Part shown: piece after piece, positions 2,162-29,151 of the stretch
How positions within the stretch are numbered: position 1 is the stretch's first letter
Layout: every line of letters begins with the position of its first letter
IMG/VR virus record: IMGVR_UViG_3300034523_000119
Location: 1-29,236 of that record
Length of the DNA stretch: 29,236 bases
Direction: 5' to 3' (one strand)
Source of the DNA: a virus
Notes under the pieces: generated by a model
What the model was told of the DNA's origin: nothing
Databases searched by the model: none
What the model saw: the letters and a program-made list of their open reading frames with translations, nothing else
Made by a program: the position numbers and the translations under genes

Positions 2162-2175
2162 ATAGGAGTTCCTGT
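2162..2175. promoter_or_regulatory. Left operator OL-a (repressor/Cro site)
   Basis: ATAGGAGTTCCTGT fits the pattern A-Y-R-G-G-N4-C-C-Y-R-T shared by five sites in this window. Its last base coincides with the first base of the -35 element of the promoter at 2175-2203. The start-to-start distance to the next operator is 25 bases. Confidence 0.7.
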
Positions 2176-2203
2176 TGACTTGAAGTATGGGTATTCCTAT
2201 ATT
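2175..2203 (+). promoter_or_regulatory. Early leftmost promoter (PL-like), repressor-controlled
   Basis: TTGACT (2175-2180), a 17-base spacer and TATATT (2198-2203) form the best sigma70 promoter in the window. It reads into the operon starting at 2233. Two operators overlap it, so it should be silent in the lysogen and fire on induction. Confidence 0.85.
2187..2200. promoter_or_regulatory. Left operator OL-b (repressor/Cro site)
   Basis: ATGGGTATTCCTAT is nearly identical to the operator at 4872-4885: the two share the 12-mer GGGTATTCCTAT. It lies between the -35 and the -10 and overlaps the -10, so a bound repressor would block RNA polymerase directly. Confidence 0.8.
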
Positions 2204-2232
2204 TGATCTCGTTCCCTTACGAGGTCCCTCAC

Positions 2233-2808
2233 ATGACTACTCTTCTTCCCTTGCTTCGCCTCTCTCTGGCCAGCCGTCACGAGCTGGCCAGCCAGGTAAC
2301 CCTCAGCGGTACCTATCACCACAACATTCATGACAGCACCACGTCCGCTGTGCGAGGTACGGTTCGTATTGCCATTGAACAATGCTGTGACGGTCTGACG
2401 GCTCGAGTGGAGTTGGGCGATTCCGTTAACAGCATTACCCTGGCCAAGCGTGAGGATAATGGCGGCCGACTGGCCGTGTTCATTGAGTCCGTGGCGAATG
2501 GTGTTTCGTTGCCTGCCGGCATCATCGAGATAGAAGAATACGACCTGGTCAGCGATCTCGAAGGAATGCTGCGCGATGCCGTGCGCGAGCGCCGAGGCAC
2601 GTACTACCTGCCAGTAGACGGTGTTGAGGAGCTTGCCCTTCTGATTCGTCAGAGCAGCGCTGATCCCAAGCGAGTTGCGTTCCGTTTCGAGCTGGAAGGG
2701 GTAGGTCTAACCCTTCCAGCTTTGATGCCGAGCGATCGAGAGGTGGCCTATGAGCTGCTGAACGGTTGTGTGGCAGAACTTGTCGCCAACTACCGCACTG
2801 CTGCTTGA
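2233..2808 (+). CDS. Early phage protein of unknown function
   Basis: First gene of the repressor-controlled early operon, 191 residues. I do not recognise a family. The start at ATG 2233 is set by GAGG at 2221-2224 and lies about 30 bases after the -10. The N-terminus is MTTLLPLLRLSLASRHELASQ. The protein is acidic, mixed alpha/beta in appearance, with no predicted membrane segment, no cysteine motif and no recognisable catalytic signature. Being the first product after derepression, it could act in host takeover, counter-defence or excision control, but the sequence does not say which. The following gene starts 9 bases after its stop codon. Confidence 0.75.
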   Translation: MTTLLPLLRLSLASRHELASQVTLSGTYHHNIHDSTTSAVRGTVRIAIEQCCDGLTARVELGDSVNSITLAKREDNGGRLAVFIESVANGVSLPAGIIEIEEYDLVSDLEGMLRDAVRERRGTYYLPVDGVEELALLIRQSSADPKRVAFRFELEGVGLTLPALMPSDREVAYELLNGCVAELVANYRTAA

Positions 2809-2817
2809 GGGGGCTTG

Positions 2818-3039
2818 ATGACTATCCAAATCACGCTGCCTGGCAAAGCCCAGGCTCAGCTTGAAATCGCCCTCGGCCACTATCGAAAAGCCGTCGCTGA
2901 ATTGGACGCTGCAATCAACTCGGGGGCGTGGGGGAAAGTTCCCAACCTCCAAGGCTGTCGTGACCTGCAGGCCCATACCATTGCCTTGATCGTTAATGCC
3001 AATTCTCCCACGCTCGTCGGGGAAGGGGTGCCAGCATGA
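2818..3039 (+). CDS. Small early phage protein, unknown function
   Basis: 73 residues, starting MTIQITLPGKAQAQLEIALGHYRKAVAELDAA. The first half looks like a long amphipathic helix; no known domain was recognised. ATG 2818 is preceded by a strong GAGGGGG ribosome binding site at 2806-2812. Its TGA overlaps the next start codon (ATGA), which indicates translational coupling within the operon. Confidence 0.7.
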   Translation: MTIQITLPGKAQAQLEIALGHYRKAVAELDAAINSGAWGKVPNLQGCRDLQAHTIALIVNANSPTLVGEGVPA

Positions 3040-3344
3040 TCGGGATCCCTAAGACCGGCGCCCTCGAGCATGGCTGCATCAGTGCCAACGTGACCACGGG
3101 CTATCGCTTTACCACCGCTGACGGTCGACCCGCGCGCCTGGCGATCATTGACGACCAGGGCAACGTGGTCGAGGCCGGTGAGTCTGTAGCCCAGGAGGCC
3201 TGGAACGTCTGCATCGCGGTCATCAAGAACTTCAAGATCGGGCAGGGCCATATCGTGGTGCACAGCGCACCACCTGGTTCCCCCTCCGAAAGCGATCGGC
3301 GATCTGCCGGCGCGAAGCGTAGTCAGACGTCCCCAAAGCGATAA
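3036..3344 (+). CDS. Small early phage protein, unknown function
   Basis: 102 residues. The body contains strand-like stretches such as ARLAIIDDQGNVVEAGES; the last 25 residues are Ser/Arg/Lys-rich and probably disordered (PPGSPSESDRRSAGAKRSQT). ATG 3036 overlaps the previous stop codon. No family recognised. It shares transcription from the promoter at 2175. Confidence 0.65.
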   Translation: MIGIPKTGALEHGCISANVTTGYRFTTADGRPARLAIIDDQGNVVEAGESVAQEAWNVCIAVIKNFKIGQGHIVVHSAPPGSPSESDRRSAGAKRSQTSPKR

Positions 3345-3351
3345 CTCACCC

Positions 3352-3588
3352 ATGTCTAAACAGCAGCGATTCAACAAGACCGAGATTCCTACTGACTGGG
3401 AAGAAGTCCGTCAGAACGCAGATCGCTACCTGTGGCTGCGTGAGCATGCGGTGAGGATTCAAGGCAGCGGGACCTGGTATCAGGGCGCGGCGTTAGACAT
3501 CCGCGTTGATGTAGGGCGTGATCGCATGGCCAATCAGGCCAAGCAAGTTCTGGAGGGAAGGGTGCTGCTCAGGCATCAACCTGAATGA
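3352..3588 (+). CDS. Small early phage protein, unknown function
   Basis: 78 residues, starting MSKQQRFNKTEIPTDWEEVRQNADRYLWLREHAVRIQ. It is rich in Trp, Arg and Gln and has a charged N-terminal helix. No family recognised. It begins 7 bases after the preceding stop codon, so it belongs to the same operon. Confidence 0.65.
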   Translation: MSKQQRFNKTEIPTDWEEVRQNADRYLWLREHAVRIQGSGTWYQGAALDIRVDVGRDRMANQAKQVLEGRVLLRHQPE

Positions 3589-3597
3589 GAGAGTCCA

Positions 3598-3621
3598 GGA
3601 CAGCGGTTGCAGCCGCTGTCC
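3598..3621 (+). other. Stem-loop between early genes (possible attenuator)
   Basis: A perfect 9-bp stem, GGACAGCGG and CCGCTGTCC, with a six-base loop, sits in the 66-base gap of the early operon. The nearest T-run (TTTT at 3640-3643) is too far downstream for a classical terminator. It may be an mRNA stability or attenuation element. Confidence 0.4.
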
Positions 3622-3654
3622 CGGCGGGACTGACCAACTTTTAGGGAATCAATC

Positions 3655-3810
3655 ATGTCCGAACGTGACTATACCACGGTTCGTAGGATGAGCCTGCGCG
3701 AAGCAGTAGATCCAGCCAATCGGGAGAAGGTGATGGCCTACTTCATCCGCGAGTGCTCGCTGGTCGCCCTACATGGCTACTTGCGCTCGATCGGGGAGGC
3801 AGCAGGGTGA
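3655..3810 (+). CDS. Very small early phage protein, unknown function
   Basis: 51 residues: MSERDYTTVRRMSLREAVD at the start, then a helix ending in [19 protein letters not shown] ribosome binding site lies about 8 bases before the ATG. The stop overlaps the GTG of the next gene (GTGA), supporting both starts. No family recognised. Confidence 0.6.
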   Translation: MSERDYTTVRRMSLREAVDPANREKVMAYFIRECSLVALHGYLRSIGEAAG

Positions 3811-4433
3811 CCTTCTGTTTGTCAGCGATGGCATTGACTGATGCGGAAGTCGCTGCAGTAGCTCGCCCAGGCGAGTCCTGGGCAAGCGCTCGCCGGCGTG
3901 CTGAGCGGTTGCGTGTGAGCGTGCGGTTGGGCATAGCTCCTGGCTGGACCGATGACGACCGATACGACTGCCCTTGCTGCAGGTACCAGAGTGTCGACCG
4001 CGACGCCTCAGCGCCGGCCGATGCCAACCAGGGGCAGGCAGTATATGCGAACGCACTTGAGGAGCAGTGGCAACGCGTTGTGGCGTATCGGCAGTTGAGC
4101 CCCCAGGACCAGCTGCGCCAATGGCTCGGGAAAAGAGGCAAGAACGTCTTGGCTGCGCCGGTGGTGCAGGAATCGTCACATACCGGTGATCTTGGCGTCG
4201 ATCGCCCGGCCAACGATCTCCCAGTTGTCATCCAGGACGACGGTTTGGTACTCGGGGTTGAGCGGTACCAGGTAGCCAACACCAGCGTCCAGGACGTACT
4301 GCTTGAACGTGTGTTCACCTGTGCCGGTGTGGCGGGCAATGTAGAACTTGCCGCTGACGAGCTCGAAGCCCTCAGGACGGATGAGGATCGGCGTTCCCTC
4401 GGGAAAGCTAGGCGGGGTATCGGACGTCATTGA
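3807..4433 (+). CDS. Early phage protein with a C-x-C-C motif; 3' end overlaps the repressor gene antisense
   Basis: 208 residues if the frame is used to its stop. GTG 3807 is favoured because GGGGAGG (3793-3799) is well spaced and the start overlaps the previous stop; ATG 3828 is an alternative. The N-terminal half looks genuine: a helical [30 protein letters not shown] segment, a [11 protein letters not shown] cluster that could bind zinc, then [24 protein letters not shown]. From 4176 the frame runs antisense to the repressor's C-terminal codons and loses any domain-like character. A 258-base convergent overlap is unusual, so the true 3' end may have been altered or the tail is simply read-through. 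Function unknown. Confidence 0.5.
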
Positions 4434-4835
4434 CTTGCCCTTTACCGCCAGCCAGTAGCCACGGGGCCCGGCGTTCTCTGTGGATGTCAGCCATTCGTCT
4501 GCGATGCCCGTGGGATGGGATACCGATGACTCAGTGGCGCTCCCGGCCACTACCCAGGTAAGTAACGGGTATTCGCGTGCTTCCCGATGGGGCTGCAGCA
4601 TGGGGGCAACGTTGGAAGGCTCTGCGGGGGGCAACATGGACCCCAACCCATTCTCGAGCCACAACGCATTCACGCCGCAGGCCTGGGCGATTCTGGCGTT
4701 GAACGACGTGCCTTTCGACTTCCCACGCTCAAGGTCTGAAACAGACGTTTGGGTAATCCCGATAGCGTCAGCAAGCTCGCCCTGGGTCAACTTTGCGTGC
4801 TGCCTGGCAGCTTTCAATCGGTCTTTGTATTCCAT
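4176..4835 (-). CDS. cI: CI-type prophage repressor (XRE HTH plus S24 self-cleavage domain)
   Basis: This protein should maintain lysogeny by binding the five operators described here, and be inactivated by RecA-stimulated self-cleavage after DNA damage. The 219 residues hold an XRE helix-turn-helix (about residues 5-60: [29 protein letters not shown]), a linker with the Ala97-Gly98 cleavage site (WVVAGSATE), and an S24/LexA-like peptidase domain with nucleophile Ser135 (KGKSMTS) and general base Lys178 (TFKQYV). The start at 4835 ([12 protein letters not shown]) places the HTH at the usual distance from the N-terminus; the open frame extends upstream, but only through the operator region. 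No ribosome binding site precedes this ATG and the promoter is immediately upstream, which suggests a leaderless mRNA. It is transcribed divergently from the Cro-like gene. Confidence 0.92.
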
Positions 4836-4871
4836 GTGCCGCACGATATGGGAGAGCCCATTTTCTTGCAA
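4836..4871 (-). promoter_or_regulatory. Repressor maintenance promoter (PRM-like)
   Basis: Read on the minus strand: TTGCAA (4866-4871), a 17-base spacer, then TATCGT (4843-4848). Only seven bases separate the -10 from the repressor ATG at 4835, so transcription should start at or within a base or two of the A of the ATG. This is the arrangement of lambda PRM and its leaderless cI mRNA. Confidence 0.65.
4848..4861. promoter_or_regulatory. Operator OR3-like
   Basis: ATGGGAGAGCCCAT has perfectly complementary half-sites (ATGGG/CCCAT). It lies between the -10 and -35 of the repressor promoter, so binding here would shut the repressor gene off. It starts 24 bases before the next site. Confidence 0.8.
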
Positions 4872-4894
4872 ACGGGTATTCCTATGTGTAATCT
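4866..4894 (+). promoter_or_regulatory. Early right promoter (PR-like)
   Basis: TTGCAA (4866-4871), 17 bases, TAATCT (4889-4894). TTGCAA is its own reverse complement, so the same six bases serve as the -35 of both divergent promoters. The hexamers are only moderate matches to consensus; the placement relative to the operators is the stronger argument. Confidence 0.55.
4872..4885. promoter_or_regulatory. Operator OR2-like
   Basis: ACGGGTATTCCTAT is the middle of three operators at exact 24-base intervals (4848, 4872, 4896). It abuts the shared TTGCAA -35 element and fills the spacer of the Cro-like promoter. In that place a repressor could block the rightward promoter and contact polymerase at the leftward one, as lambda OR2 does. 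Confidence 0.8.
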
Positions 4895-4895
4895 T

Positions 4896-4909
4896 ATGGG
4901 AATTCCCAT
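4896..4909. promoter_or_regulatory. Operator OR1-like
   Basis: ATGGGAATTCCCAT is an exact 14-base palindrome and the most symmetric of the five sites. It covers the predicted transcription start of the Cro-like gene, 15 bases before that gene's start codon. Confidence 0.85.
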
Positions 4910-4923
4910 TTTCAGGGCTTGCC

Positions 4924-5136
4924 ATGAACATCTATCAATCTCTCGTAAAGCACTTCGGCACCCAGAGCGCCGTTGCAGACGCGCTGCATGTCAACCAGGG
5001 AACCGTCTCGGGGTGGGTACGTGGCAAGTATGGAATGGGCCCACTCTTGGCGCTGAAAGCAGAGGCGGCTACGCACGGAAAATTCAAAGCTGCTGACCTT
5101 TGCCCGTCGCTTAGAGGCGTCTCCAATCACCCCTGA
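4924..5136 (+). CDS. cro: Cro-like / YdaS-like DNA-binding regulator
   Basis: A 70-residue protein consisting essentially of one helix-turn-helix: [49 protein letters not shown]. The [22 protein letters not shown] segment (residues 11-32) is the HTH typical of Cro and YdaS proteins. Its place, divergent from the repressor and behind three operators, gives the role: it should bind the same sites in a different order and favour lytic growth. AGGG at 4914-4917 is well spaced from ATG 4924; the longer upstream frame crosses the operators and the repressor gene and is not credible. Confidence 0.85.
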
Positions 5137-5188
5137 GTACGGCCTTTTCGGCTAGTTCAGTGATCAAAGGTAGAAGTAGGCCTTCTGA

Positions 5189-5818
5189 ATGAACACGTCC
5201 AACCCTCGACACCCGCTGGTGTCCCGCGACCAGGTACTGGTGGCGCACGCCGCCGACATGATCGCTCGCACCGGGTTCAGCCAAGACCACTTCGCCCAGG
5301 CGCTCAGTGGTCACCTGCATGACCTGGCCCCCGCCAAGGCGATCGCCAAGGACGTGCCGGACTTCCACGCACTCGCCCAGGGCAACGACACTGACGCCTT
5401 CCTCAAGGCCTCAGGCGCCTGGCTGCGCCGCGTCTCGCGCTGGCTGAGCGGCGAGGTGGACCTCCCCAGCTGGATCGAGGAGGCCTGGGTACAGGCGCTT
5501 GAGGACGAGTACCAGGATCGTTGCCTGAACGAGCTGGCAAGCCGGCACGGCCTGTCCGGTGCTCGAGCACTGCGCGGCGACGCCAACCCTGTTGGTGTAT
5601 TCGGGCAGCTTGTGGCCCGTTTGGGCAGCACGGTGTCGTTGGGCAGCGAGATCCTGGCGGATGGCCGCATTGATGCCCAGGACCTGGCCAAGTTGCCCGA
5701 GTTTGTTGAGCGGCTGCGATCGGCAGAGGCGCGCTGCAGCGAGCTGCGCACCCGGGCCGAGGAAGTGTTGCTCGAGCAGTCGCAACAGCCCAGCCATAAG
5801 GCGAACGCCGCTCCGTGA
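5189..5818 (+). CDS. Early phage protein, unknown; possibly a CII/CP76- or YdaT-like regulator
   Basis: 209 residues directly after the Cro-like gene, where P2-like phages and Rac-type prophages carry a second regulator. The N-terminal part (SRDQVLVAHAADMIARTGFSQDHFAQALSGHL) looks like a helical DNA-binding or activation segment. The C-terminal segment EILADGRIDAQDLAKLPEFVERLRSAEARCSEL resembles the helical tail of phage CII/CP76-type proteins; this is a weak pattern match. ATG 5189 is preceded by AAGTAGG. The stop overlaps the GTG start of the RepA-like gene, so the two are translationally coupled, pointing to a role linked to replication or its control. Confidence 0.6.
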   Translation: MNTSNPRHPLVSRDQVLVAHAADMIARTGFSQDHFAQALSGHLHDLAPAKAIAKDVPDFHALAQGNDTDAFLKASGAWLRRVSRWLSGEVDLPSWIEEAWVQALEDEYQDRCLNELASRHGLSGARALRGDANPVGVFGQLVARLGSTVSLGSEILADGRIDAQDLAKLPEFVERLRSAEARCSELRTRAEEVLLEQSQQPSHKANAAP

Positions 5819-28005: not shown

Positions 28006-29151
28006 ATGATCTGCACGGAATGCGTAATCCCGATACCGCTCAAAAAACTCATAGCTGGGCAAGGTGGCTTTGGCGACTGTCAATATTGTCAAAAGCCTGG
28101 GATGTGCCTTCAAGATGAAACTGTTCTTGAGTACATAAAAGAGCGAATTTTAGAGTCTTTCCGTACGCTCGAGGAACTCAGCCACATCGAGCAGCACATA
28201 TTTTTTCATGGATCAGACAAGATAACTCCGAGCGAGTTCTGGGCGATAGTGCAAGATGACTACACCGTTGGCACGGACGCATTCGTAGAGCGCGCCATAA
28301 ATTACCTCGAAGAAGATCTAGCGTTAGATGAGCACGGTGAGACCCAGATCTGGGCACTTGATGATGGAACATTAGCGCGAAATGTTTATGAGGAACGATG
28401 GCAAAAATTCGTCCTAGACACTCACCACGGCTATCGCTTTTTCAATTTTGCCGCGAAAGAATTTCTCGATTCATTGTTCGACTTTGCCTGCCACGACAAG
28501 AAATTGAGACCTGAACTGCTCACGACATTAAAGGACGATCAGCTATTGTTTAGGGCGCGAAAAGTCTCGGAACGTAGAAAATGCGATGAGTTTGACAAGT
28601 TTCCAGAAACTGCCTTAGGTCCAGCCCCGGCGGCAAAAGCTGGCGATCAGCGAATGACCCCGTCTGGTATCTCGGCAATGTATTGCGCGTTTGATCGGGA
28701 AACATGCCTGAGTGAAATTCGCGCAATCACAGGCGATCTTGTAGTCAGTGGTGCTTTCACGCCAGTAACTCAACTTAAGTTTCTTGATCTTCGCATGCTT
28801 CAAGAAATGTCGAAAATTTCAGCGCACCCGTTTGATAAAGGATACGTAGAGACCTGTCACGCTCATCGATTCTTATGTCTGCTCATCAACAAATTGTCGA
28901 AGCCTAAAAGCAGTTCCGACACCCTGGGATATATATCCACACAGGTGGTATTTGAATACCTGCGACTGAGATTTAAAGGCCAAGTATCTGGCCTGATCTT
29001 CCCTTCAGTGCAAACTGGCTTAGTTGGTACTAACGCTGTTTTGTTTCCTGAGAGCGCTGTAATTGCCCCCAAAGGGTACAAAATTGAGAATGAGGACCCG
29101 CTGGGACATCAATGTCATCAACTTTGGAAATTATCCATAAATATCATATAA
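28006..29151 (+). CDS. RES-domain protein (predicted NAD+-degrading effector) with N-terminal cysteine cluster: prophage cargo
   Basis: 381 residues. The C-terminal half (about 180-350) has the RES-fold signature: R183 in LLFRAR, then RMTPSGISAMYCAFDRETCLSEIR with Tyr226 and Glu237, and later GLIFPSVQTGLVGTNAVLF with Ser334. These are the Arg-Glu-Ser residues that name the family, whose toxins degrade NAD+ by phosphorolysis (for example MbcT). The N-terminus carries C3-x2-C6 and C25-x2-C28-x5-C34, a probable zinc site, and residues 35-170 are helical, as in RES proteins with a HEPN-like N-terminal region. AAGAGG is well placed before ATG 28006. The gene is clearly AT-richer than the rest, shows no antitoxin neighbour, and lies between the last virion gene and the expected attR, a classic cargo site. 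Role in anti-phage defence is inference. Confidence 0.75.
   Translation: MICTECVIPIPLKKLIAGQGGFGDCQYCQKPGMCLQDETVLEYIKERILESFRTLEELSHIEQHIFFHGSDKITPSEFWAIVQDDYTVGTDAFVERAINYLEEDLALDEHGETQIWALDDGTLARNVYEERWQKFVLDTHHGYRFFNFAAKEFLDSLFDFACHDKKLRPELLTTLKDDQLLFRARKVSERRKCDEFDKFPETALGPAPAAKAGDQRMTPSGISAMYCAFDRETCLSEIRAITGDLVVSGAFTPVTQLKFLDLRMLQEMSKISAHPFDKGYVETCHAHRFLCLLINKLSKPKSSSDTLGYISTQVVFEYLRLRFKGQVSGLIFPSVQTGLVGTNAVLFPESAVIAPKGYKIENEDPLGHQCHQLWKLSINII

Follow-up and report, generated by a model that had tools for sequence, protein, structure and literature searches.

An apparently hybrid immunity region in a P2/HP1-like prophage, with five predicted D3-type operators and a left early promoter that faces the repressor gene

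The stretch of DNA analysed here (the window) comprises a viral record of 29,236 bp, IMG/VR IMGVR_UViG_3300034523_000119, and it carries a prophage with a serine integrase, P2/HP1-like structural genes and a lambda-like control region. The integrase gene occupies positions 175-1824; the adjoining positions 1-180 resemble, by eye, the start of a host rimO-like gene on the minus strand, which suggests that the attachment site lies there. The virion genes include matches to Phage_cap_P2, Phage_GPO, a small terminase and HP1 Orf24. At the right end (28006-29151) is a cargo-like gene with a RES domain, typical of a family of NAD-acting toxins, for which PADLOC gave no match. An operon on the plus strand (2233-4433) contains ORFs at 2233-2808, 2818-3039, 3036-3344, 3352-3588, 3655-3810 and 3807-4433, none of which belongs to a family of known function in Pfam, PHROGs, NCBIfam or PADLOC. 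The last of them is antisense to the repressor gene cI over 258 nt (4176-4433). This ORF also bears a CPCC motif; its sole full-length relative seen is that of L005/L051, among the sister prophages described below, and phage records gave no match to it.

The cI gene (4176-4835, minus strand) encodes a 219-amino acid CI repressor with HTH_3 and Peptidase_S24 domains. To its right, on the plus strand and downstream of the predicted rightward promoter PR, profile matches identify genes for a 70-amino acid Cro-like repressor of the P22_Cro/YdaS family (4924-5136) and a CII-like transcriptional activator (5189-5818; phrog_4834). CI matches the lambda repressor 3bdn over most of its length (E = 2e-23), and its helix-turn-helix (HTH) taken alone has the 434 repressor as its best match; the protein combines a 434/D3-like HTH in residues 1-68 with an S24 C-terminal domain like that of lambda CI. 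In an alignment to the lambda repressor A97-G98, S135 and K178 stand at the expected places, and we take these to be the cleavage and catalytic residues; self-cleavage is predicted from the sequence only. The initial annotation described a five-operator immunity circuit of the lambda type, split over two control regions, on a P2/HP1-like phage, and this much is supported.

The proposed operators have the form A-Y-R-G-G-N4-C-C-Y-R-T (AYRGGNNNNCCYRT). All five lie where they were first reported, at 2162, 2187, 4848, 4872 and 4896, and these are the only exact matches in the 29,236 bp; the spacings of 25 bp (2162/2187) and of 24 and 24 bp (4848/4872/4896), and the overlap of the first pair with a promoter, are likewise as described. 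That promoter, PL (2175-2203, plus strand, TTGACT-17-TATATT), is directed towards cI. OL2 (2162-2175, plus strand, ATAGGAGTTCCTGT) is an exact motif match whose final base also begins the PL -35 box, and OL1 (2187-2200, plus strand, ATGGGTATTCCTAT), also a motif match, covers the PL spacer and half of the -10 box. In the other control region the cI-proximal site OR3 (4848-4861, plus strand, ATGGGAGAGCCCAT) lies over the predicted spacer and -10 box of PRM, the middle site OR2 (4872-4885, plus strand, ACGGGTATTCCTAT) lies within the predicted PR spacer, and OR1 (4896-4909, plus strand, ATGGGAATTCCCAT) is a perfect palindrome and lies where PR is predicted to start. The centre of OR2 is about 43 bp upstream of cI, close to the position of lambda OR2, which is centred at -42.

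In 1000 dinucleotide shuffles of the window the mean number of matches was 0.405 and the maximum 3; five were reached in 0 of 1000, and the 24/24 triplet was present in 0 of 1000. A scan of the full prophage for further sites gave only weaker matches at chance level (107 with at most two mismatches, 113.6 expected), among which none stands out as an extra operator. Nor does the motif occur at random frequency in related bacterial DNA, a possibility that had been raised against the operators: in four related Pseudomonas genomes, standing in for the host's own, it is rarer than a reversed-pattern control (28-41 versus 51-70 matches per 4.8-6.2 Mb).

PR and PRM were assigned from conserved geometry alone; both have weak -10 boxes, and a promoter scan did not detect either. 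Their predicted shared -35 box, TTGCAA (4866-4871), is self-complementary and so could be used by PR on the plus strand and by PRM on the minus strand; it lies at -36 from the cI ATG in all 86 of the related loci described next. The predicted PRM -10 box, TATCGT (4843-4848, minus strand; placed by geometry only), is separated by 17 bp from TTGCAA and by 7 nt from the cI ATG, an arrangement from which the cI message is probably leaderless.

Searches with the whole CI and with the HTH alone yielded 86 non-redundant loci, the window included, that share this DNA-binding domain; we call them D3-type after Pseudomonas phage D3. Nearly all 86 have three sites, at about -74, -50 and -26 relative to the cI ATG, and 71 of 86 have outside that region a further pair, spaced at exactly 25 bp and together containing no more than one mismatch, although the relatives are phylogenetically non-independent and these counts overstate the number of independent observations. 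The pair, whose spacing departs from 25 bp only twice (23 and 26, once each), brackets TTGACN-17-TATATT and lies at a distance from the cI start that varies from about 0.7 to 6 kb; of the loci that lack it, several stop a short way past cI, or are D3-like loci in which the second site has diverged further. D3 itself, as known from its record, its sequence and the published account in which its immunity region is described as lambda-like (PMC7326022), is like the window in many ways. Its record annotates three putative operators before cI, 24 bp apart and placed as in the other loci; its sequence has an OL pair around TTGACA and TTGCAA at -36; and in the group as a whole (D3, F10, PMG1, JBD44 and PseuP_222) the HTH is 61-68% and Cro about 59-61% identical to those of the window (64% and 59% for D3), the second or other operators varying by one or two bases. 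D3 differs in having a PL directed away from cI, a different CI C-terminus and a lambda-like rather than P2/HP1-like phage body, and the serine integrase family is not common to both. The recurrence of the 3+2 layout across the relatives of D3 makes this a circuit of a known kind; these comparisons show it to be conserved in D3-type Pseudomonas immunity and not a one-off. Of 72 D3-type loci, 70 have a PL directed away from cI; the other two are the window and L172, which has a degenerate module. The window, whose PL points towards cI, is therefore a variant of the D3-type region rather than a plain member.

A search that did not use cI as a criterion gave a similar picture. The 42-bp OL/PL module, used as a probe of 400 Pseudomonas genomes, had 31 matches in 30 of them (reversed control, 0). 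A D3-type cI adjoins 30 of the 31, with PL 711-5670 bp from the cI start and at least one OR site, usually two or three, in place; the 31st match is on a short contig. OL and the D3-type CI thus belong together. In all 30 of these independent genome loci PL is directed away from cI. Seven loci (L186, L196, L201, L203, L205, L206 and L208) combine operators of the class AAAGG-N4-CCTRT, in an unchanged 25-bp OL/PL geometry, with a CI HTH that has only 47-54% identity to that of the window; this class is apparently another immunity specificity.

The chassis of the window has different relatives. Through gene 3036-3344 we found a set of sister prophages in Pseudomonas (L005-L019, L024 and L036-L088) that have in common with the window the integrase, the DUF1654 gene, the left operon, the CI C-terminus, the CII-like gene and the direction of PL, which is towards cI in the window and 52 sisters. 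They differ from it in having a lambda-like CI N-terminal domain, as judged by matches to solved structures, and another cro. The window's motif is absent from the control regions of those sisters that were checked; at the two places where the window has it, they carry a 15-bp TWARCCNNNGGYTWA-like palindrome, often at 24-25 bp spacing (the pattern was chosen by eye, and the counts include off-register matches). When the OL of each sister was compared with its own OR, the best agreement over 15 bases averaged 13.48, against 12.35 +/- 0.15 in permuted pairings (0 of 2000 permutations reached 13.48); overall relatedness could account for part of this, because closely related sisters resemble one another in OL and in OR. 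In the window, OL and OR agree at 13 positions, whereas the agreement of its OL with the sisters' OR averages 11.0. One more relative of this chassis (L020, 5983-9150) has a third type of repressor N-terminus; its DUF1654 gene and left operon are directed away from cI, the reverse of what is seen in every other sister, and by eye its two control regions have CAC/GTG-type repeats in common.

These two sets of relatives amount to a natural domain swap, in which the same HTH with another C-terminus goes with presence of the motif, and the same C-terminus with another HTH goes with its absence. Relative to the nearest sister, L051, identity drops at about 2150-2250 and about 4600-5190, and these two stretches correspond to the exchange; further drops (3301-3400 and 4001-4150) are differences in gene content. 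By its sequence the window is a natural hybrid. Its D3-type portion comprises OR, the OL sites, cro and the DNA-binding domain of CI, and its integrase, left operon and CII-like gene, together with the CI C-terminus, are those of a P2/HP1-like Pseudomonas prophage family. Since the sisters have another HTH and another palindrome at both places, the window's repressor specificity and its two operator regions differ from theirs together; its OL sites may have been gained by recombination or by stepwise change. The relatives of gene 3036-3344, 14 from genomes and 48 viral, included no other prophage with the same hybrid, and published phages gave only distant matches to the window's family. The seven strong matches to the whole CI in the 400 Pseudomonas genomes, judged from the search alignments, cover the protein only from residue 3-14 on, at 51-70% identity and with longer open frames. 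An inversion of the left region or an assembly fault in the window was also considered and is ruled out, because the order and direction of the DUF1654 gene, PL and the next gene are identical in 52 sisters.

The best explanation of the five palindromes, to which we give a probability of roughly 0.9, is that they are the operators of the prophage's own CI, and probably of Cro too, in a hybrid, lambda-like switch of the D3/434 type. In a lysogen, CI dimers on OR1 and OR2, perhaps bound cooperatively, would shut PR and with it cro, the CII-like gene and the genes after them, and dimers on OL1 and OL2 would shut PL and the operon at 2233-4433. By its geometry OR2 would stand where lambda CI activates PRM, and OR3 would serve negative control of PRM. 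On SOS damage the S24 domain would cleave CI, both early promoters would open and the lytic programme would start, with Cro competing with CI after induction; PL, parallel to PR as in the P2/HP1-like family, would run convergently into the 3' end of cI. Two observations count against this explanation: the direction of OL is opposite to that in every clear D3-type relative, and PR and PRM, whose -10 boxes are weak, were both missed by the promoter scan.

How closely the circuit would copy that of lambda is a separate matter. Lambda and lambda-imm434 are like the window in their three-site OR with about 24-bp spacing, in promoter overlap, in a middle site near -42 and in a probably leaderless cI message, and the window's CI joins a 434-like HTH to a lambda-like C-terminus. 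They have six sites, however, compared with the five predicted here, and a different promoter layout. In lambdoid immunity, as defined in PMC8053113, the lytic promoters PL and PR diverge and cI lies between them, and the initial annotation, which gave no direction for PL, held that the arrangement mirrors lambda. In this respect it does not: PL and PR of the window are parallel, both on the plus strand, and PL converges on cI, whereas in lambda and the D3-type phages they diverge around it. The window is a circuit of the known D3/434/lambda kind whose promoter layout is not lambda's. In a strict copy of lambda, a CI octamer would loop the DNA between OL and OR over 2.7 kb and control both regions cooperatively. 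Looping is plausible by analogy, given the homology of the CI C-terminus to that of lambda CI, the presence of at least two adjacent sites in each region, and the published looping by the lambda, HK022 and phiKO2 repressors (PMC8053113). The non-divergent promoters and the variable distance of OL in the relatives speak against a strict copy, and we rate it at somewhat under even odds.

A further suggestion adds to the two-region CI switch rather than replacing it, namely that transcripts from the inward PL reach the 3' end of cI and, through collision of RNA polymerases or as antisense RNA, reduce the level of CI, which would make the lytic decision harder to reverse. We hold this only tentatively. 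It fits the shared orientation of PL in the window and its sisters and the antisense overlap of the operon's last ORF with cI. A hairpin-plus-T search for intrinsic terminators between gene 3036-3344 and cI found one in the PL direction before cI in 2 of 54 loci and one in the cI direction in 4 of 54, while 29 of 71 D3-type loci have a cI-direction terminator between cI and OL; gap lengths differ between the groups, and the comparison is thus suggestive only. On the other side, the search was crude and leaves room for Rho-dependent termination, the D3-type phages do without an inward PL, and no account of a prophage that controls cI by convergent or antisense transcription came up in a literature search. 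It is possible, if somewhat doubtful, that this Pseudomonas prophage family silences cI by convergent or antisense transcription when PL opens, the wiring staying fixed while operator specificity (lambda-like to 434/D3-like) is exchanged at both regions.

It is very improbable that the OL pair serves another regulator, such as Cro only or a host protein, the likeness to OR being incidental. Cro shares its operator sites with CI in lambda and very likely does so here too, and to that extent another regulator would use the pair; but the pair tracks the CI DNA-binding domain across loci, including the sisters and the matches of the blind genome search. That the palindromes are chance products of a short motif with ten specified positions, some of them degenerate, is ruled out by the shuffles, the genome background and the conservation of the layout in dozens of relatives.

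The split operator circuit was already known in outline from D3, and the points of interest here are the hybrid nature of the region and the inward PL. The 42-bp OL/PL module is a simple DNA signature that locates D3-type prophages and would predict which of them share immunity. In nature the hybrid seems to parallel the classic lambda-imm434 exchange, and since operator regions 2.7 kb apart differ together from those of the sisters, one may ask by what route a phage alters both. With its inward PL, the window also offers a testable case of whether early transcription that converges on a repressor gene contributes to shutting the repressor off.
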